Source: a virus
DNA length: 20,605 nt
IMG/VR virus record: IMGVR_UViG_3300008450_000590
Coordinates: 1 to 20,605 of that record
Strand: one strand, 5' to 3'
The translations under genes were made by a program, and so were the position numbers. The notes under the pieces were generated by a model. The model was not told where the DNA came from and searched no databases. It worked only from the letters and a program-made list of their open reading frames with translations. Below are positions 2,246 to 12,047 of this stretch, piece by piece; position 1 is the stretch's first letter, and the number at the start of each line of letters is the position of its first letter.

Positions 2246-2575
2246 ACGGAACAACATAAAAAGGCGATGCTCGATGCTTTGGAGAAATCTTTAGGCGTAG
2301 TTACCTCTGCCTGCAAGACGGTGGGCGTAGGTCGTACTACGCACTACCTCTGGATGCAGGAGGATAAAGAATACAAAGCAGCAGTCGATGAACTATCAGA
2401 CGTAGCAATTGACTTTGCAGAGAGCCAACTACATAAGCAGATAAAGGAGGGCAACTCAACTGCTACTATCTTTTTTCTAAAGACCAAGGGCAAGAAGCGT
2501 GGATACATAGAGAGGCAAGAGGTAGATATCCAGACCCCGAAGCTATTTCAGATAGAGGTGCTTGGCGAAGATTGA
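2237..2575 (+). CDS. terS: Small terminase subunit
   Basis: A 112-residue protein directly before the large terminase. An N-terminal helix-turn-helix spans about residues 20-43 (VVTSACKTVGVGRTTHYLW), followed by a helical segment rich in acidic residues (44-75) suited to oligomerisation, then FFLKTKGKKRGYIER (80-94) and a short C-terminal tail. In such phages the small subunit forms a ring that recognises the packaging start site and passes DNA to the large subunit. The ATG at 2237 is preceded by an A-rich leader with no Shine-Dalgarno sequence. The gene overlaps terL by 14 bases. The 64-base gap before it carries the antisense promoter and the 5' half of the tRNA-like gene. Confidence 0.82.
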   Translation: MDKTEQHKKAMLDALEKSLGVVTSACKTVGVGRTTHYLWMQEDKEYKAAVDELSDVAIDFAESQLHKQIKEGNSTATIFFLKTKGKKRGYIERQEVDIQTPKLFQIEVLGED

Positions 2576-3719
2576 GACCAATAAGGTATTTGGCCACCTA
2601 AAGCGAAGCACTAAAAAGATAGTAGTCGAGCAGGGCGGTACCCGTAGCGGAAAGACATACAATATCCTGCTATGGATCATATTCCATTACACGGATAAGA
2701 ACGAAGGCAAGACCATCACGATCTGCCGTAAGACGTTCCCTGCGCTCCGGGCTTCTGTTATGCGGGACTTCTTTGAGATCCTCCGGAACCACGACATATA
2801 CAATGAGATCTACCACAACAGGTCGAATAGCGAGTACTACCTAAATGGGAACCTTGTGGAGTTTATCAGCCTTGACCAACCCCAGAAGATAAGGGGGCGC
2901 AAGCGCAACCTCCTGTACATTAACGAAGCCAATGAGCTGACGTACGAGGACTGGCAGCAGCTCATAATGAGGACCGAGGATCGTGCGATACTTGACTACA
3001 ACCCTTCGGATGCGTTCCATTGGATTTATGATAAGGTCGTACCGAGGGATGACTGCGACTTTTTTCAGACCACGTACCTCGACAATATGTTTTTAGATCA
3101 GAGCATCAAGGATGAAATCCTACGGCTCAAGGATACGGATAACGACTACTGGCGTATCTATGGTCTGGGGGAAAGGGGTATGAGTAGAGCCACGATATTC
3201 CAGTACGGGCAGTCCGAGATACCAACGGATGCAAAGCTCTTATCATTTGGCCTTGACTTCGGGTACACGAATGATCCCAGCGCACTGGTTGCAGTATATG
3301 AGGCAAACGGAAGCCTTTACTTTGATGAACTGCTATACCGCACGGGGATGACCAATAACGATATCGCAAATATCTTTACCTCCATCGGTATCGATAGGCG
3401 CAGCGAGGTATATGCTGATAGCGCAGAGCCCAAGTCAATCGAGGAACTATACCGAAGGGGCTACAATGTAAAGCCCACGACCAAAGGCCCCGACTCGGTG
3501 AACGCAGGAATCGATATAATGAAACGCTACAAACTATTTATCACTCCCCGGAGCATCAATCTTGAAAAGGAGATGCGTAACTACAAATGGACGGAGGATA
3601 AAAATGGAAACCTCCTTAATAAGCCTATCGATGCTTTTAACCACGCAATCGATGCTGCGAGGTATGCTATCTTTAGCAAGAAAAATAATCCTAACTTTGG
3701 CAGATATTCTGTAAGATGA
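2562..3719 (+). CDS. terL: Large terminase subunit (ATPase and nuclease)
   Basis: The 385-residue DNA packaging motor, close to the PBSX/Terminase_3 type in length and layout. The ATPase half has Walker A GGTRSGKT (25-32), an adenine-side CRKTFPALRAS segment (55-65), Walker B LLYIN followed by catalytic Glu (117-122) and a DYNPSDAFHW coupling segment (145-154). The nuclease half has metal-binding Asp residues in GLDFGYTNDPSAL (230-242), YADSAEP (284-290) and DAFNHAIDAARYA (357-369). The start is TTG at 2562, inside the end of terS; no ATG or GTG lies between there and the Walker A motif, so TTG is the best choice. Its stop overlaps the next ATG. Confidence 0.96.
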   Translation: MAKIETNKVFGHLKRSTKKIVVEQGGTRSGKTYNILLWIIFHYTDKNEGKTITICRKTFPALRASVMRDFFEILRNHDIYNEIYHNRSNSEYYLNGNLVEFISLDQPQKIRGRKRNLLYINEANELTYEDWQQLIMRTEDRAILDYNPSDAFHWIYDKVVPRDDCDFFQTTYLDNMFLDQSIKDEILRLKDTDNDYWRIYGLGERGMSRATIFQYGQSEIPTDAKLLSFGLDFGYTNDPSALVAVYEANGSLYFDELLYRTGMTNNDIANIFTSIGIDRRSEVYADSAEPKSIEELYRRGYNVKPTTKGPDSVNAGIDIMKRYKLFITPRSINLEKEMRNYKWTEDKNGNLLNKPIDAFNHAIDAARYAIFSKKNNPNFGRYSVR

Positions 3720-4636
3720 TATACGTAGCAGGACAACCGGGTGGGGTTTACTACCACCGCCTCCAGATACCATACGAGGACTTGCTGATGCGAGGCTACC
3801 TAATTAAGTTTGGAACAATACAGGAACTCGATAAGTATAAGGATGCAATCACGCACCTTGTGGTAAACCGAGGGCTTGCGACAAAGAATCACAAGGCGTT
3901 CCGGTATATGCTGGATAAGAACAATATAAAGCTTATCCTCGACCTCGATGACTGGTGGATGCTACCGAGGCATCACGCTAATTATAGCACACAGAAAACG
4001 CAGGATATCTTAATGACTATCAAGATAGCCGATGAGATCCATACGACCAATGAATACCTTGCGAGCAAGATCCAAAAAGAAAATCCCTACGTACCTATCT
4101 GGGTACTGCCTAATGCGATAGACCCACGCAGATCTCAATGGGAGGACATAGAAAAGGTAGAGGGCTTCAATGTCGGGTATATGGGTGCTTTGCATCACGA
4201 TGAAGACTTGGCGTATAACCGCATCAATTTAGAGGGACTTAATGCTTACACCATTGAGTACTATAAAGAGTCGCTAAAGGCTTCTAATGCGTTCCAGAGG
4301 GCTGACTACTTAGACTACGGCAAACTATATAAGAACATCCACGTCAGTATCGCCCCACTTTCACCGAGTGCCTTTAACAGATGCAAGTCAAACCTAAAGG
4401 CTCTGGAGGCTGGCTTTACCAAGACGTGCATCATAGCTCAAGATATGCATCCCTATACCCCGTTGCTGAATAAGAGCAACTCTATCCTCTGCAAGGGGCC
4501 GGGGCATTGGGAAGAGGAACTACGGAACCTCGACCCTCAGAGGTGCGCTGACCTTGCAGAGAAACTTTATGAGGACGTACAATTTTTTCACATTACGAAT
4601 ATCAACGATACACGCCAGCAATGCTTCGCACAATAA
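3716..4636 (+). CDS. GT-B fold glycosyltransferase (GT4/glycosyltransferase family 1-like)
   Basis: Probably a retaining glycosyltransferase with two Rossmann-like halves. N-terminal half: GQPGGVYYHRLQIPYEDL (6-23) is typical of a donor/acceptor cleft, then ITHLVVNRG (45-53) and IKLILDLDDWWMLP (71-84). The linker VLPNAIDP (130-137) matches the conserved hinge of GT4 enzymes. C-terminal half: FNVGYMGALHHDED (151-164) and CKSNLKALEAGFTKTCIIA (223-241), corresponding to the donor-binding region where an E/ALEA helix holds the sugar nucleotide. It is 306 residues, short for GT4 but complete in order. The start overlaps terL (ATGA). It is one of two glycosyltransferases in the window. Its target is unknown: virion protein, DNA or host glycan. 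Confidence 0.78.
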   Translation: MIYVAGQPGGVYYHRLQIPYEDLLMRGYLIKFGTIQELDKYKDAITHLVVNRGLATKNHKAFRYMLDKNNIKLILDLDDWWMLPRHHANYSTQKTQDILMTIKIADEIHTTNEYLASKIQKENPYVPIWVLPNAIDPRRSQWEDIEKVEGFNVGYMGALHHDEDLAYNRINLEGLNAYTIEYYKESLKASNAFQRADYLDYGKLYKNIHVSIAPLSPSAFNRCKSNLKALEAGFTKTCIIAQDMHPYTPLLNKSNSILCKGPGHWEEELRNLDPQRCADLAEKLYEDVQFFHITNINDTRQQCFAQ

Positions 4637-5268
4637 AAGTACCCACGATCTGGGCTGACCTCAGCCTAAAGGACTTCCAGAGGTTTATGGGGGCTAACCC
4701 TACGGATGAAACGGCAGAGGACTTGGCTCTCTCTATATTCTGTGGAATCGATAAGGATGAGCAGGACTCGTTCCCGGTAAAAGAGCTGGAGGATATCAAG
4801 ACAATAATTGCTGGGGTATTCACGGAGAACCCACCCCTGCATCGGTTCGTACATATCAATGGCGTAAAGTATGGATTCCACCCTAAGCTGGAGAACATCT
4901 CGCTTGGTGAGTTTGTGGATCTCGAAGAGTATATGAAAGACCCCATAAAAAATGCACAGAAGTGGATGGGGGTGCTATACCGCCCCGTTACGAAGGAGGC
5001 CTTCGGGAGGCACGAGATAGAAAAATACCATCCAGATAAGCACGATGGATCAGCATTCGAGGCCATTACAATGGACATAGTGCAGGGTGCGCTGCTTTTT
5101 TTTTATCGTTTAGAACTCGGACTGCAGATATCTTCGCTGACCTATTTGAGGCAAGTGGCGAAACAAGGGAAATCCTCGACTCCAGAACCGCCTTCGGTAA
5201 ACGATGGGGATGGTATGCAATCCTCCATCAACTCGCTGCGGGGTCTATACAAAACCTTGACCAGATAA
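4621..5268 (+). CDS. Tail assembly chaperone, zero-frame product (G-like)
   Basis: A 215-residue protein of a tail assembly chaperone type seen in Bacteroidota phages. It opens with a short beta segment and LSLKDFQRFMG (15-25), has FVHINGVKYGFHPKL (76-90), SLGEFVDLEEYMKDP (94-108), WMGVLYRPVTKEAF (115-128) and a helical part ending at a run of nine T. The zero-frame end after the T run has an acidic, Gly-rich segment (NDGDGMQSSINSLRG) typical of the short form as I remember the family. Chaperones of this kind bind tape measure and tail tube proteins during tail assembly and are usually made in two forms by frameshifting. Unusually it sits after terL and a glycosyltransferase, about 5.7 kb ahead of the tape measure gene. 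It overlaps the preceding gene by 16 bases. Confidence 0.72.
   Translation: MLRTIKVPTIWADLSLKDFQRFMGANPTDETAEDLALSIFCGIDKDEQDSFPVKELEDIKTIIAGVFTENPPLHRFVHINGVKYGFHPKLENISLGEFVDLEEYMKDPIKNAQKWMGVLYRPVTKEAFGRHEIEKYHPDKHDGSAFEAITMDIVQGALLFFYRLELGLQISSLTYLRQVAKQGKSSTPEPPSVNDGDGMQSSINSLRGLYKTLTR
5096..5104 (+). promoter_or_regulatory. Programmed -1 frameshift site (T9 slippery run)
   Basis: Nine consecutive T lie in the frame CTT TTT TTT TAT, giving the slippery heptamer T TTT TTT at 5097-5103. Slipping back one base moves translation into a frame that stays open to 5363 and encodes protein-like sequence. Polymerase slippage adding one T would give the same result. I did not find an obvious downstream pseudoknot by eye. 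Confidence 0.75.
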
Positions 5269-5363
5269 CGGAGCTACCGCTTTACCAATGCTTGATGTGG
5301 GTAACGTACGAGGCTGACAAGTCACGCCTTGAGGCGCAGATGGCTCGGCAGAATACCCGATAA
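5103..5363 (+). CDS. Hidden -1 frame extension of the tail assembly chaperone (GT-like)
   Basis: After a -1 shift at the T run, codons starting at 5103 run to TAA at 5361-5363 and add 86 residues, giving a 247-residue fusion (161 zero-frame residues plus 86). The segment has no usable start codon of its own: the frame opens after a stop at 5037-5039 and its first ATG lies near the end. It reads like a real protein, with ADIFADLFEASGE, FGKRWGWYAILHQLA, ITELPLYQCLMWVTYE and a helical charged end ADKSRLEAQMARQ. It fills the otherwise empty gap before 5378. In lambda the equivalent G-T fusion binds the tail tube protein through its T part while the G part coats the tape measure; I infer the same division here. 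Confidence 0.78.
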   Translation, partial: LSFRTRTADIFADLFEASGETREILDSRTAFGKRWGWYAILHQLAAGSIQNLDQITELPLYQCLMWVTYEADKSRLEAQMARQNTR

Positions 5364-5377
5364 AGGGTTCTTTATTT

Positions 5378-5845
5378 ATGAAGTACGGATACTATCAAAT
5401 CTGCGAGGCTCTGCAATCAGCAGCCGACAACTCATCCTATGTAAACTCCGTAACGTGGGGCAACATCTTTGATGTCGATATGCGGAAGATGACCCTCTTC
5501 CCTTTGTGCCATATCCTTACGGGAACGGCTGAGGTATTGGAGCGAACCGTGATCTATTCAATCGATGTTCTGGTAATGGATGCGATGGACTATTCCAAGC
5601 AAGATCCGAATGTAACGCCCTACTCTTACGAGGGAGTAGCACAGAAACAAGACATATACCATAGAAGCCTATTCTCGATGCAGGAGATGATCGCAAGCCT
5701 CCGTAGGGGTGATCTATATACGGACGGGTTTAGGCTCGTTAATGACCCTCTATGCGAGCCCTTCGATGAGGACTTCGAGTCCACCGTCTGCGGATGGAAG
5801 GCAACGCTCCAGATAGAGACTCCGAACCCCACGATTATCTGCTAA
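5378..5845 (+). CDS. Putative tail terminator or neck protein
   Basis: A 155-residue protein of a family I associate with Bacteroidota phage structural clusters, where it is usually left unnamed. Features: an N-terminal helix with YQICEAL (6-12), SSYVNSVTWGNIFDVD (19-34), then FPLCHILTGTAEVL (41-54), a strand-rich middle IYSIDVLVMDAMDYSK (59-74), a helical segment containing SLRRGDLY (107-114), and CEPFDEDFESTVCGWKATLQ (126-145). The alpha-beta layout and the position just before a gp10-like tail completion protein suit a tail terminator that caps the tail tube. That is inference from order and size. Its stop overlaps the next ATG by one base (TAATG). Confidence 0.55.
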   Translation: MKYGYYQICEALQSAADNSSYVNSVTWGNIFDVDMRKMTLFPLCHILTGTAEVLERTVIYSIDVLVMDAMDYSKQDPNVTPYSYEGVAQKQDIYHRSLFSMQEMIASLRRGDLYTDGFRLVNDPLCEPFDEDFESTVCGWKATLQIETPNPTIIC

Positions 5846-6354: not shown

Positions 6355-7625
6355 TGGCAATCACTATAACGCAGCAGGCACCGACTCGCTCCTTCGCTGG
6401 CAGCCCTATGGTCTATTCTGTAAGCAGTAACAATTCCGGTAACGCAGGATTTAAGTACGTTGCGGATGTGTTTATCTGGTTTGGATCAAGCAGCTCCGTA
6501 CCGGGGACTTATGCCTATCGCCTTATCAAGCCGAAGGAAAGCATCAGCAATCTTTACGGCTACTTTGATATCAGCAATATCGTAAGCTCGTACCTATCGC
6601 AGACCAATATCGACCACGCTGCAGGAACGGCTACTGATAACGATCAGAGCGTATGCAATGTGCAGGTGAAGTTCCGGGAGTACACGACCGCTGGAGGCAT
6701 CGCTGCAGTTACCGCAACATCCAATACAATCAATGCCTACGATGGCTATACGGAGTTCGTGGATGGGGTAAATGGAACGACCACCACGGGAGTAATGACA
6801 AGCGGTAGCAGCATCCAATATATCCAACTCGACCAAGCCCTTACGATAGGGGTAGTGCCTGCTCTGGTAAATGGTATGAGGGTAGATTATAGCGATGGAC
6901 AATCTGCTATGATTGACATAGCGGACTTCGGTGCGGTGGATTCGGTGAACTCTACCAATAAACTATTTTACCTTCCTGCTGGAGTTGCTAACCTTAACGA
7001 TTCAGTAATCGACCCTAAACCACAGGATGTCGCAGACCTTCTATACTACGACCTATCGCTGGGAGTATTCCAGAGCGTAGCGTATAGCAGAAGGGTAGAG
7101 ACCGATGGTGGCGTATGCGAGGCATTGACTTGTCTGGAGGCTGCATTGCAGGAACTCGGAGAAAACGATGCTGCATACACGACTCGCTTTACCCCTACGT
7201 GCGAGGTAACGTATAGCCCGATTACAATCGCCTACCAGAATAAGTACGCAGCGTGGGATTATATCGTGGCATTCAAGAGATCCACTAACTCTACATCGAC
7301 CAGCAAGGATCAGTTTGAGACTAACGTAGGCACGCTCGGCTCGAGTACCTTTACCTACAATCCTGCGACTGCATCACCGACCAAGACCTTTAACAATTTC
7401 GGAAGGGATAGCATTAGCGTGAACACGGGGTTCTTGAACGATGGCTACAATCAAATGGTAAAAGAAATGCTACTATCCAACATCCTTTATTTCGTGGAGG
7501 AAGAGAGATACGTTACGCTTAAAAATACTTCGCAGGAGTACAAGACAAGCCTCAACGATAACCTCGTGCAGTACACCTTCAATTTCGATTACGCAGCACA
7601 AGTTAAAAACAGGGTATGGCTCTAA
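6354..7625 (+). CDS. Large tail/baseplate structural protein
   Basis: A 423-residue beta-rich protein with many Ser, Thr, Asn and Gly residues, no signal peptide and no catalytic motif. N-terminal segments such as FKYVADVFIWFG and YFDISNIVSSYL are followed by a variable Thr/Gly-rich centre and a conserved-looking end with VKEMLLSNILYFVEE and LVQYTFNFDYAAQVKNRVWL. Proteins of this type precede a larger tail protein in Bacteroidota phages and probably form part of the distal tail or baseplate; the exact role is not known to me. Residues 247-269 (7092-7160) carry one copy of the RVxxDGGxxExxxCLxxxLxxLG motif found again at the right end of the window. The end overlaps the next gene by 10 bases. 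Confidence 0.6.
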   Translation: MAITITQQAPTRSFAGSPMVYSVSSNNSGNAGFKYVADVFIWFGSSSSVPGTYAYRLIKPKESISNLYGYFDISNIVSSYLSQTNIDHAAGTATDNDQSVCNVQVKFREYTTAGGIAAVTATSNTINAYDGYTEFVDGVNGTTTTGVMTSGSSIQYIQLDQALTIGVVPALVNGMRVDYSDGQSAMIDIADFGAVDSVNSTNKLFYLPAGVANLNDSVIDPKPQDVADLLYYDLSLGVFQSVAYSRRVETDGGVCEALTCLEAALQELGENDAAYTTRFTPTCEVTYSPITIAYQNKYAAWDYIVAFKRSTNSTSTSKDQFETNVGTLGSSTFTYNPATASPTKTFNNFGRDSISVNTGFLNDGYNQMVKEMLLSNILYFVEEERYVTLKNTSQEYKTSLNDNLVQYTFNFDYAAQVKNRVWL

Positions 7626-10183
7626 CGCTGCAAACCACTACGGGGTATCTCGATTTATTTAGCGATGAAAGTATCAGCGTAGATTACAATCTTGCTGACC
7701 TCAGAGATCCTGCTGCTATATTCAGCCCGATATCGAAGAGCTTTAGCGTTCCGGCAACGGATGTAAATAATCAGTTCTTTAAGCATTACTACGATGTAAG
7801 TATTAGCGGAGGGTTTAATCCGTATGCAAAGCAGGACGTTACGCTTTATAGCGATGACCTTATTATGATTAGCGGCTACCTTCAGTTGCTTGACGTATCG
7901 CTTGAGAACACAATGCCGAAGCAGTACCAAGTTCTGGTCGCTGGAGAGAACGCAAGGTTCGCACGAAACGTAGGTGAAAAGGAACTGCGAGAGCTTGATC
8001 TGGAGTCGTATGTCCATACTTTTAACTACGAGAACATCGTAGGTAGCTGGAACGGAGATCTATTCGATGGGGATATAGTTTATGCTCCTGTAGATACCCG
8101 TGTCTTTGCGAGCGACACGCTATTCTCACCGCAGCAGGCGCTCACCCCTTTACGTGAGACGGATTTTTTTCCTGCGATAAAAGCCACAATTATATTCCAG
8201 CAGATATTTACAGAGGCAGGATACACGATAGAGTCCGCAACGGGGATCTTTGCGAATCCTAAGTTCACGGATATGCTGCTGCTTGGGTATAACAAAGAGG
8301 GGCTTGTACCCTTGGAGGCATCCTTTAATAGCAGACTGGCGCAGGTCTATTCAAGTGCGAGCTTGGCGATTCCGGAACTCACGGCTACCACCCCGAGCAT
8401 AATCCGATTCAACACGGAGGTCTATGATAACGGGAACAACTACAATACCGGAACTTGGCGGTATGAGGTGCCTATTATCGGGGAGTACAAGTTCAACGTG
8501 CAGGGCGTGATAACCTCGCCATCGGGGAACTATATGTACCAAATCACGATGTACTTGGGTAACACCGCAATCCAGACAAAGGATGTCGTGACGGCTGGTG
8601 CTTTCTCGATTGACTTTGTGCATTTCTTTAGGGACTTGACTGCAAGCAACCTTGTATCGTTTCGCATAGGGGGTATCGACTCCGGGGGTACTCTTGCATC
8701 CAGTTGCCAGATGACCGTGATCAATGCACCGGACTACCCTACGGGGATGGATGTAGATCCTTCGATGTTCCTGCCTAAGATGAAGCAGAAGGACTTTATC
8801 GCTGGAATCGCTAAGATGTTTAACCTCGTATTCGTACCGAGCAAGAACATCCCGGATATGATAAGCATCTACGCTTATGATGCGTGGATAGCCCTTGGCG
8901 CAGTAAGGAACTGGCAAGAGGTCGTGGATGTAAACCAACCCATTACGATAAAGCCTACTACGGAACTGCAGGGCAAGACCATAAAGCTGCTAATGGCAAA
9001 TGGTAACTCTATTCTCGACAACGCATACGTATCCTCTTTTGGAATCCCTCACGGAAGCGTTGAGGTCGATGACACGGGAAATCAATTTGCAGAGAGCGAG
9101 ATTACAATCGATGCTCCCTTTGCTGCGACAATCACGAATCGGATAAATTCAAATACCACGTTTGACGTAATCCAGATGTTCGATGCGGAGGGAAAGGCTA
9201 TCGATTCCCCACCTCGCTTGCTTTATTTTAATGGCCTTAATGGGACATCGGACTACTATATCTTCCGGAGTGCGGATGGTGCTTTTTTAGTTCAGAACGA
9301 GTACCCGGTATTTAATGTAACCTACGGAGGTACGTTTACCGCAACATTCGGAATACCACAGGTAGAGGGCACGAAACCCCCAAAGAATAACCTACTGACT
9401 GACTTCTACGCCACGTATCTTTTGGAGCTATATGCTACGGATGCGGTGATGCTGGAGGTATCGATAGTCTTGGAGCCTTCGGAGTTATTCCTGCTGAACC
9501 TCAACGATCAGATATACTACGATGGCGAGTACTGGAGAATCAATAAGATAAACGGGTACGATCTGGATAAGATGACTGCACGGGTAGAGTTATTTCGGGC
9601 TTCGTTTGTAAACTCTTCGATCTGCGCAAGCACTATCACGGCTTTGAATAACAACGGAACCGTGAGCTTTAGCGGAAGCGCAACGCAGCAATGCTGCGAG
9701 TTCTACGGGTATAAGTGGAGCGACAATACGTGCTACTGGCGTACGAGTAGGTTTGTGAAAACAAAAAGCGCAGGGCTTGTCGGTCTGGAGAAATCAGCAA
9801 TCGCTAATGTCAGCACCAATACCTCACGACCTACGAATACGATGTACTGGTATGAGGTCACTTCGGACTTGGAAGCCACAAGCTTCCGGTGTGTGGCATT
9901 ACACAATTATGCTACGCCTTTGTTTGATCTTGCCGTAGGGCAGCATCAGATCGTGAGAATCACTTTCACTTGCGAGACTTACTCCTATCAGTCGGATTAC
10001 ACGATAGTACGGGGAGCAGCAGGCGATACAATCCACGGCCTGCATAATGTGATAAGCGATAGGTATGTTTTAACAATTCAAAAGGTAAACGGCTTTGCTT
10101 CGTTTTTGCAGTTAGACCACCAAGGAGGTACAGAGGTTGCAGAAACGTGGAGCGTAGTGGCAGAAAGAACGCAACTATTATGA
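7616..10183 (+). CDS. Very large tail/baseplate structural protein
   Basis: At 855 residues this is the largest protein here. The N-terminal segment LFSDESISVDYNLADLRDP and IFSPISKSFSVPATDVNN, followed by strand-rich DVTLYSDDLIMISGYLQLLDV, is characteristic of a big tail protein placed before or near the tape measure gene in Bacteroidota phages. The middle has KDFIAGIAKMFNLVFVPSK, similar in pattern to hub-like tail proteins. The last ~190 residues contain an NNNGTVSFSGSATQQCC segment that looks like a surface-exposed add-on with a Cys pair. I infer a baseplate hub or distal tail role; no peptidase or lysozyme motif is visible. Its stop overlaps the next ATG (ATGA at 10180). Confidence 0.6.
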   Translation: MALTLQTTTGYLDLFSDESISVDYNLADLRDPAAIFSPISKSFSVPATDVNNQFFKHYYDVSISGGFNPYAKQDVTLYSDDLIMISGYLQLLDVSLENTMPKQYQVLVAGENARFARNVGEKELRELDLESYVHTFNYENIVGSWNGDLFDGDIVYAPVDTRVFASDTLFSPQQALTPLRETDFFPAIKATIIFQQIFTEAGYTIESATGIFANPKFTDMLLLGYNKEGLVPLEASFNSRLAQVYSSASLAIPELTATTPSIIRFNTEVYDNGNNYNTGTWRYEVPIIGEYKFNVQGVITSPSGNYMYQITMYLGNTAIQTKDVVTAGAFSIDFVHFFRDLTASNLVSFRIGGIDSGGTLASSCQMTVINAPDYPTGMDVDPSMFLPKMKQKDFIAGIAKMFNLVFVPSKNIPDMISIYAYDAWIALGAVRNWQEVVDVNQPITIKPTTELQGKTIKLLMANGNSILDNAYVSSFGIPHGSVEVDDTGNQFAESEITIDAPFAATITNRINSNTTFDVIQMFDAEGKAIDSPPRLLYFNGLNGTSDYYIFRSADGAFLVQNEYPVFNVTYGGTFTATFGIPQVEGTKPPKNNLLTDFYATYLLELYATDAVMLEVSIVLEPSELFLLNLNDQIYYDGEYWRINKINGYDLDKMTARVELFRASFVNSSICASTITALNNNGTVSFSGSATQQCCEFYGYKWSDNTCYWRTSRFVKTKSAGLVGLEKSAIANVSTNTSRPTNTMYWYEVTSDLEATSFRCVALHNYATPLFDLAVGQHQIVRITFTCETYSYQSDYTIVRGAAGDTIHGLHNVISDRYVLTIQKVNGFASFLQLDHQGGTEVAETWSVVAERTQLL

Positions 10184-10332
10184 ATATAGGTTTTTTAATT
10201 ACTGAGCTTAAAGGGGATCACTACGGCATCTGCAACGAGATAGAGATATCCAAAGGCAAGTGGGAGATAGTTGAAAGCTGGTCAGAGGCGAAGCAACAAA
10301 TCAAGAGGCAATGGCAGTCGAGAAAGTTATAA
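10180..10332 (+). CDS. Small 50-residue protein before the tape measure gene
   Basis: A short protein beginning MNIGFLITEL with GICNEIEISKGKWEI in the middle and a basic, Gln-rich end (SEAKQQIKRQWQSRKL). The frame is open upstream to 10147, but the ATG at 10180 forms an ATGA junction with the preceding stop and is preferred. It overlaps the tape measure start by 22 bases. I do not recognise a family. The predicted layout is two or three strands and a C-terminal basic helix. Translational coupling on both sides argues that it is expressed. Its slot, just before the tape measure gene, is where a chaperone usually sits, but it is too small for that without a partner. Confidence 0.55.
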   Translation: MNIGFLITELKGDHYGICNEIEISKGKWEIVESWSEAKQQIKRQWQSRKL

Positions 10333-12047
10333 AGCTAAAGGTTGAGAATGGCGAGGCTATTCTAAACGTGCAGGAGCTTAACAAGGCTTTAAGCGACACC
10401 AATAAGCAGGCCGATGGACTAAGTAGCACGATGGCTAACGCCACGGAAGCAATCGATAAGTACACGGGTGGCGCAGCTTCTGGGTTTAAGGCCTTAGTCG
10501 GTGGGGTAAAGAGCTTTGTCGTGGGGATGAACTCCGTAAAGGGTGCGCTTATATCCACAGGCCTCGGAGCCTTTGTCGTTGTACTTGGATCTTTATTCGC
10601 TTACTTCACGCAGACCTCAAGAGGTGCGGATAAATTAGCTGAGGCAATGGGTGGCCTTGGGGCTGCAGTAAAGGTCGTAATCGACAGATTCGTTGGCTTA
10701 GGCGAGTCGCTGGTAAAGTTCTTTACTGGTGATTTCAAGGGAGCAGTCAAGGGCATTAAGGATGCTTTTGCCGGATTGGGGGATGAGATTACCAGAGAAA
10801 CAAAAGCAGGCTCAGCGTTAGCCAAGCAGCTTGATGATATCGAAGACCGAGAGCGAGACCTTATCAAGATGCGAGCAGCAGCCAATGTTCAACTCACAGA
10901 AGCTCGACTAATTGCTGATGACCAAACTAAGAGTGTAGAGGAACGTGAGAAAGCGGTTCGAAGAGTTAATGAGCTGGAGACTAAAGTAGCAAAAGCTGAG
11001 CAAGCAAATGCACAAGCGTATGTCAAATACCTAAAAGAGAAAAAAAGACTTGGAGAAACTACCGATGCAGATCTGCTTGCCCTTGCAGAAGCGGAGGCTA
11101 AGGTTGATGAAATGCGTTCCGAGTCGCTACGCAGACAGAAAAAACTACAAAACGAACTCAAGTCGTTAGCCTCTGAGCGTAAACAACAAGAAGCGGAAAC
11201 CTTAAGCAATATAAAAAAATTAACTGAGGAAGAGCAAAAACTTGCCGACTTACGAAAGCAGTGGGCTACTGAGGACTCTGCAGCGGCTGCTAAAAAGGCC
11301 GAGACTGATAAAGTATTAAGGGGGCAAAACGTAGCAGCATACAACGATATGCTGGCTCAGATGCGTGGTTCGAGTGGGACTGCAGAACAGCAAGAACTTG
11401 CGGCAGCAGAGCAGCAGTACCTTGCCCTTACGACTTTAGCGATAAAGGCTGGCAAGAGCACGGTGGAGGCTACTCAGATATACGAGGAGAAAAAGAAACA
11501 AATAAAAAAGAAGTATGCGGATGAAGATCGGGCGAATGAACTTGCCAATGCTGCTGCTTCTGTTCAGCTTGCAGGGCAGGCCTTCGGTGCTTTAGCGCAG
11601 CTCTCTGAGGCTCTGGGGAAGGATAACGAAAAGAATGCGGAGAAAACATTTAAGATCACAAAAGCCCTTCGGATAGGGGAGGCAATCGCAAGTACGGCTG
11701 CTGCTATTATGATGCAGTTCGCAGTACCGCAGGATGCTCTTACGGGGGCTAATTTCGTAAAGGCTGGAATCGTTGCAGCAACGGGAGCAGCACAGATAGC
11801 AACAATCGCTTCTGCTAAGTTCCAACCTTCCGGGGGCGGTGGAGGCAATAAGCCATCCAGTCCTTCGATACCTACGGCAGGGGCTTCTGCTCAACCTATG
11901 ACACCGAACATATCCTTCAACAATACGGAGAACCAACTTGCTGGGATGCTGGGTCGGCCTATGAGGGCGTACGTCATAAACCAAGACATTACAAATGCTA
12001 ATCAGTTGGAACGCAGAATACGCTCCAGCGCAACAATCGGAGGATGA
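10311..12047 (+). CDS. Tape measure protein
   Basis: A 578-residue, almost entirely helical protein. The N-terminus VIKLKVENGEAILNVQELNKAL is typical of Bacteroidota phage tape measures. Residues ~58-150 are Gly/Ala-rich with hydrophobic membrane-active stretches (ISTGLGAFVVVLGSLFAYF). Residues ~165-330 form long charged coiled coil rich in Lys, Glu, Arg and Ala. A second hydrophobic stretch at ~465-510 is followed by a flexible GGGGG and Pro/Ser/Thr-rich segment and a short end with NQLERRIRSS. Tape measures set tail length at about 1.5 angstroms per residue, so a tail near 85-90 nm is expected if the whole protein is used. The coiled-coil coding part is more AT-rich than its flanks. It overlaps the next gene by four bases. 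Confidence 0.86.
   Translation: MAVEKVIKLKVENGEAILNVQELNKALSDTNKQADGLSSTMANATEAIDKYTGGAASGFKALVGGVKSFVVGMNSVKGALISTGLGAFVVVLGSLFAYFTQTSRGADKLAEAMGGLGAAVKVVIDRFVGLGESLVKFFTGDFKGAVKGIKDAFAGLGDEITRETKAGSALAKQLDDIEDRERDLIKMRAAANVQLTEARLIADDQTKSVEEREKAVRRVNELETKVAKAEQANAQAYVKYLKEKKRLGETTDADLLALAEAEAKVDEMRSESLRRQKKLQNELKSLASERKQQEAETLSNIKKLTEEEQKLADLRKQWATEDSAAAAKKAETDKVLRGQNVAAYNDMLAQMRGSSGTAEQQELAAAEQQYLALTTLAIKAGKSTVEATQIYEEKKKQIKKKYADEDRANELANAAASVQLAGQAFGALAQLSEALGKDNEKNAEKTFKITKALRIGEAIASTAAAIMMQFAVPQDALTGANFVKAGIVAATGAAQIATIASAKFQPSGGGGGNKPSSPSIPTAGASAQPMTPNISFNNTENQLAGMLGRPMRAYVINQDITNANQLERRIRSSATIGG

Follow-up and report, generated by a model that had tools for sequence, protein, structure and literature searches.

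A conserved frameshift in tail assembly chaperones was reportedly described by Xu, Hendrix and Duda in 2004, and the slippery site of phage lambda is G_GGA_AAG. That tail chaperones can be made by programmed −1 frameshifting, as in lambda G/GT, is well known (PMC5009743). For the T4-like tail chaperones, the passage of PMC10885494 that cites Vladimirov 2022 gives the proposal that their forms do not arise by translational frameshifting. No reports of frameshifting in tail genes of Bacteroides or Flavobacterium phages were found in the open-access literature.

We analysed a virus record of 20,605 bases (the window) carrying a gene that, with a probability of roughly 0.78, specifies a G/GT-type tail assembly chaperone as in lambda, produced by ribosomes that slip by −1 on U_UUU_UUU. 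As in lambda, the gene is a late one preceding that of the tape measure protein, the putative −1 shift occurs close to its 3′ end, and the predicted short and long products have a common N-terminal domain. The locus differs from lambda in its site, which is T_TTT_TTT throughout the family, in the position of the gene, which is near the terminase and separated from the tape measure gene by several others, and in a zero-frame tail extending 20–84 codons past the site in the family. No sequence or fold match to lambda G/GT was found. The features of the window are compiled in Table 1.

Table 1. Position of the frameshift gene, its signals and its syntenic neighbours in the window
Feature	Position	Strand	Remarks
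Terminase large subunit	2562–3719	+	Syntenic upstream marker
Zero-frame gene, 215 aa	4621–5268	+	ATG at 4621, stop at 5266–5268; G-like product
Weak terminator-like hairpin	5078–5094	+	7 pairs, some G-U; directly 5′ of the T run
T9 run	5096–5104	+	
Slippery heptamer T_TTT_TTT, in the zero frame	5097–5103	+	Invariant core of the site
−1 frame domain, 86 aa	5103–5363	+	Stop TAA (5361–5363); C-terminal part of the predicted 247-aa fusion (T-like)
Stretch read in two frames	5103–5268	+	Zero-frame constraint mainly in the first ~17 codons past the site
Downstream syntenic gene g5378, 155 aa	5378–5845	+	
Downstream syntenic gene g5794, 186 aa	5794–6354	+	
Probable tape measure protein	10311–12047	+	PHROG tape measure, E 2.4e-12

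The zero-frame protein consists of the N-terminal domain common to both products and a zero-frame tail of 54 codons. At the site its codons are CTT TTT TTT TAT. After a slip back by one base reading resumes at 5103 (TTA TCG TTT AGA ...) and continues for 86 residues, which together with 161 zero-frame residues gives a fusion of 247. The −1 frame is open from 5040 to 5360 and its first ATG, GTG or TTG is codon 63 of the −1 domain, whereas the +1 frame is shut two or three codons past the site in nearly all loci. The T9 run is the only one in the window, although a T9 anywhere is not rare in itself, being present in 31 of 100 shuffles. The coordinates of the original prediction (zero-frame end at 5268, next gene at 5378, T9 run, −1 frame at 5040–5363) all hold, as do the proposed 86-residue extension and 247-residue fusion and the lack of a start codon near the beginning of the −1 frame.

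Among described phages, Nonlabens phages P12024S and P12024L (Inhavirus), at approximately 29% identity to the window, carry in gp38/gp39 and gp40/gp41 a homologous zero-frame gene, the −1 domain and the same T9 site. They differ in that these pairs are annotated as two hypothetical proteins and that the zero-frame tail comprises just 25 codons. The expectation that gene callers miss the second half was borne out for the window but not for P12024S/L, in which it is annotated, in shortened form, as a separate hypothetical gene; gene annotations thus miss the second half or split it off. This annotation would suit a −1 ORF translated independently from a start of its own, and some ATG, GTG or TTG is indeed found up to codon 25 in 23 of 70 representatives. 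However, just two of the 70 have an early ATG, the window has no early start at all, and conservation begins at the slip site, which makes an independent gene very improbable. Both features of a G/GT-type extension, selection at the protein level and lack of an own start, are found in the −1 ORF of the window.

In the Flavobacterium Unahavirus phages 2A and FPSV-F7, the N-domain of a 293-aa protein is homologous by profile (hhalign probability 92%), but this protein is encoded in one continuous reading frame without a frameshift, and its C-terminus did not match the −1 domain significantly. Such fused relatives resemble, by description alone, the T4-like tail chaperones in doing without frameshifting. 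A 191-aa protein of Flavobacterium phage 6H matches the model of the zero-frame protein; judged by its length it appears to be gp10, which is encoded in the same strand run as the annotated tape measure gene. Compared with phage 2A, 6H (L224, 10047–10927) has two additional bases immediately preceding a T_TTT_TTC stretch, which break the 293-aa frame of 2A and FPSV-F7. Perhaps these two bases are a sequencing error in 6H.

Using the −1 peptide as query, 367 encoding stretches were detected among viral contigs, and 41 using the zero-frame protein. Further scans, for which zero-frame proteins served as queries, were independent of the −1 frame, and many relatives were found by the zero-frame domain only. 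Except for early-ending contigs and L378, the loci from these scans carry the −1 domain past the site. Homologues of the −1 peptide downstream of the same kind of gene, whose absence the original prediction had named as the outcome speaking against it, were thus present in hundreds, the outright opposite of that outcome.

All 366 loci in which both frames are complete, 174 of them below 90% identity, contain the heptamer in frame, in a pool that had been gathered by locating the heptamer and from which only L198 and L400 failed. In the case of L198 (AGT TTT TTT TTG) the failure was due to a coordinate offset and not to the sequence, and the L400 contig ends before the site. T_TTT_TTT is present in 70 of 70 representatives below 85% identity from the window's branch and in 159 of 159 covered sites of two further scans. 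The length of the run varies from 7 to 10 across the family, with 9 in 63 of the representatives, 10 in five, and 8 and 7 in one each; L124 has exactly T7. The codons before the core (GTT, CTT, CAT, ATT, AAT, ACT) and after it (TAT, TGG, ACC, ATG, TTG) vary freely.

The gene was also found on Bacteroidota genome contigs, namely of a Flavobacterium MAG, a Prevotella MAG with a second copy in its genome (L206), Dysgonomonas and UBA10404. When 395 genomes from a single class were searched by profile, a distant branch (L207–L217) emerged besides the Dysgonomonas copies; six of its members (L212–L217) have the site CAT TTT TTT A with exactly T7. Branches 1 and 2 are homologous in both halves by profile comparison (hhalign 92% and 95%), and all 59 viral loci of branch 2 contain the in-frame heptamer, 47 of them with exactly T7.

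In the 70 representatives, all 140 Phe codons at the site are TTT, compared with 66% of those elsewhere in the same genes; the naive probability of this, ignoring shared ancestry, is approximately 10^-25. Selection on the window's branch was estimated from 27 close sequences as an omega-like ratio. By this measure purifying selection on the −1 frame is strong, with ratios of 0.19 in the overlap and 0.13 past the zero-frame stop; the corresponding values in branch 2 (0.28 and 0.13) give the same overall picture. For the zero frame, the 27 sequences gave a ratio of 0.72 in the overlap, compared with 2.3 where this frame is non-coding. Dual coding between 5103 and 5268, as originally predicted, could be upheld only in part. 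Codons 1–17 past the site are clearly constrained in the zero frame (8 synonymous and 6 non-synonymous changes), whereas codons 18–36 show no constraint (3 and 17) and the later codons are intermediate, with partial constraint (6 and 8). Zero-frame tails average 59 codons, while 23 are expected with constraint on the −1 frame only, as obtained by synonymous reshuffling of the −1 domain. Since the median p per gene is just 0.08, we conclude from these comparisons that the zero-frame tail is probably selected, though this is not provable gene by gene.

The two-frame layout is above chance, because it recurs in the 366 complete loci, all Phe codons at the site are TTT and the omega-like ratio of the −1 frame is low. 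The programmed −1 frameshift proposed to join both halves is therefore strongly supported by conservation. Likewise, the comparisons strongly support the view that a large group of Bacteroidota-infecting viruses carries a frameshift gene predicted to make a short and a long protein. Two T10 copies read as one frame, L200 of Dysgonomonas sp. 520 (7515–8273) and viral contig L378 (near 1975), are exceptions to this layout. Together with fused single-ORF relatives such as those of phages 2A and FPSV-F7, they might indicate that the −1 frame is a remnant, or reflects a homopolymer sequencing error in a normally single-frame gene. This is hardly conceivable, as the same frame relation occurs in hundreds of independently assembled contigs, zero-frame codons past the site are under selection and the zero-frame tail is longer than expected; conservation already refutes it. 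The two T10 copies themselves are either natural fused copies or homopolymer errors, and L284, a close relative of L200, has T9.

The main rival to ribosomal slippage is slippage of RNA polymerase at T9, which would give the −1 frame through mRNAs that have gained one U (or lost two). Slippage of bacterial polymerases is documented for runs of 9 A or T (PMC5009743), and 63 of the 70 representatives of the window's branch have T9. Moreover, the terminator-like hairpin of the window directly precedes the run, and similar upstream hairpins exist in L025, L037 and L124. Yet a hairpin of this kind is missing in 45 of the 70 representatives and in 53 of the 59 branch-2 loci, which rules it out as a family feature. 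T9 is not required, since the majority of branch-2 loci and L124 have exactly T7. A homopolymer of approximately nine or more A/T residues kept for its length, as in transcriptional slippage, was not found in the family, given the variation from 7 to 10 and the T7 lineages. The invariant seven bases instead represent the ribosomal heptamer in the correct frame. Because they sit in the frame needed for tandem slippage of two tRNA-Phe, and because the T7 lineages are long-lived, the ribosome is favoured. We regard polymerase slippage as the source of the −1 product as quite unlikely. On this evidence ribosomal slippage would be well ahead, whereas polymerase slippage may contribute in T9 lineages.

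With ribosomal slippage, the majority of ribosomes would stay in the zero frame and produce the 215-aa G-like protein. A minority would slip back one base at U_UUU_UUU, with both UUU codons occupied by tRNA-Phe, and synthesize a 247-aa GT-like protein, the last 86 residues of which would form a helical T-like domain. The G part would coat the tape measure protein and the T part would recruit tail tube subunits. Both the ribosomal nature of the slippage and its efficiency are presumptive.

RNA structure 3′ of the site did not exceed chance in the 70 representatives (mean z approximately −0.1), which rules out a downstream structure as a family feature. The Rfam search gave no match, and no Shine–Dalgarno-like element stands out in the base frequencies of the window's branch. 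In branch 2 (L225–L283), approximately 26 to 20 bases 5′ of the heptamer, the synonymous codons ACG and GAG are 96% and 98% conserved, compared with a usage of 17% and 30%, and yield a GGAGG ending approximately 19 bases before the heptamer. A stimulatory role of this GGAGG is possible but would be odd for hosts without Shine–Dalgarno pairing. In Bacteroidia, sequestration of the 16S tail keeps the ribosomes from recognising Shine–Dalgarno sequences (PMC9976891). The heptamer U_UUU_UUU is far less prone to shifting in E. coli than A_AAA_AAG (PMC5009743). As a tentative explanation, which we consider less likely than not, a Bacteroidota-wide gene family might use a bare U_UUU_UUU, with neither 3′ structure nor Shine–Dalgarno stimulator, that is suited to hosts sequestering the anti-Shine–Dalgarno sequence. 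Host tRNA-Phe and ribosome would then make the heptamer slippery enough for the chaperone ratio.

The designation as a tail chaperone is plausible from architecture and synteny, but no Pfam, NCBIfam or PHROGs family so named matches. Sequence and fold searches of the PDB gave no match of any kind, and chaperone-annotated viral models were matched only at non-significant Foldseek E values of 0.33 and 0.79. We infer the chaperone role from the layout and location of the gene rather than from homology to any chaperone tested. Structures were modelled for each half apart, giving a good model for the zero-frame protein (pLDDT 84.6) and a moderate, helical one for the −1 domain (pLDDT 75). Several single proteins of 226–268 aa in the viral library match both models, with a strength that ranges from weak to strong. 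As A0A6J5N0W0, A0A516L611 and similar predicted viral proteins hold both domains in one chain, the −1 domain is the natural C-terminus.

The conserved gene order is terminase, frameshift gene, g5378, g5794, g6354 and g7616, followed by the probable tape measure gene, whose distance from the frameshift gene ranges from approximately 5.2 kb in the window to 6.7 kb in P12024S. In the window both are on the same strand, with four genes and a short ORF between them. No major tail protein gene was recognisable beside the frameshift gene. In the window's close clade (L016, L025, L037, L119, L124) a 306-aa gene (3716–4636), without a Pfam match, is located between terminase and frameshift gene; it was not found at that place in most distant relatives. 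Between the frameshift gene and g5378, L120, L121 and L122 contain approximately 0.8–1.2 kb of extra sequence compared with other loci.

Capsid or tail proteins with a minor extended form are also known from Listeria phage PSA. The frameshift might likewise be real in a protein that is no tail chaperone but serves some other structural or assembly function and has a minor extended form; the lack of homology to known chaperones and a gene position nearer to the terminase than to the tape measure gene would fit. We consider this unlikely. Two products with a common N-domain that differ in a short C-terminal domain, from a gene preceding that of the tape measure in a late module, correspond to the G/GT layout, and the modelled −1 domain is predicted to be small, helical and T-like.

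While the mechanism itself is known, the Bacteroidota family appears to be new in the resources searched, as do the T_TTT_TTT site found throughout it and the dual-coded tail. For many environmental and prophage genomes of Bacteroidota, this provides a probable tail chaperone pair that was so far hypothetical or missed. It also offers a rule for annotation: an N-domain of approximately 130–170 codons, T_TTT_TTT in frame, and then a −1 domain of approximately 74–93 aa. Finally, the natural series of T7, T8, T9, T10 and fused variants may be used for studying frameshifting in bacteria with ribosomes that do not read Shine–Dalgarno sequences (PMC9976891).
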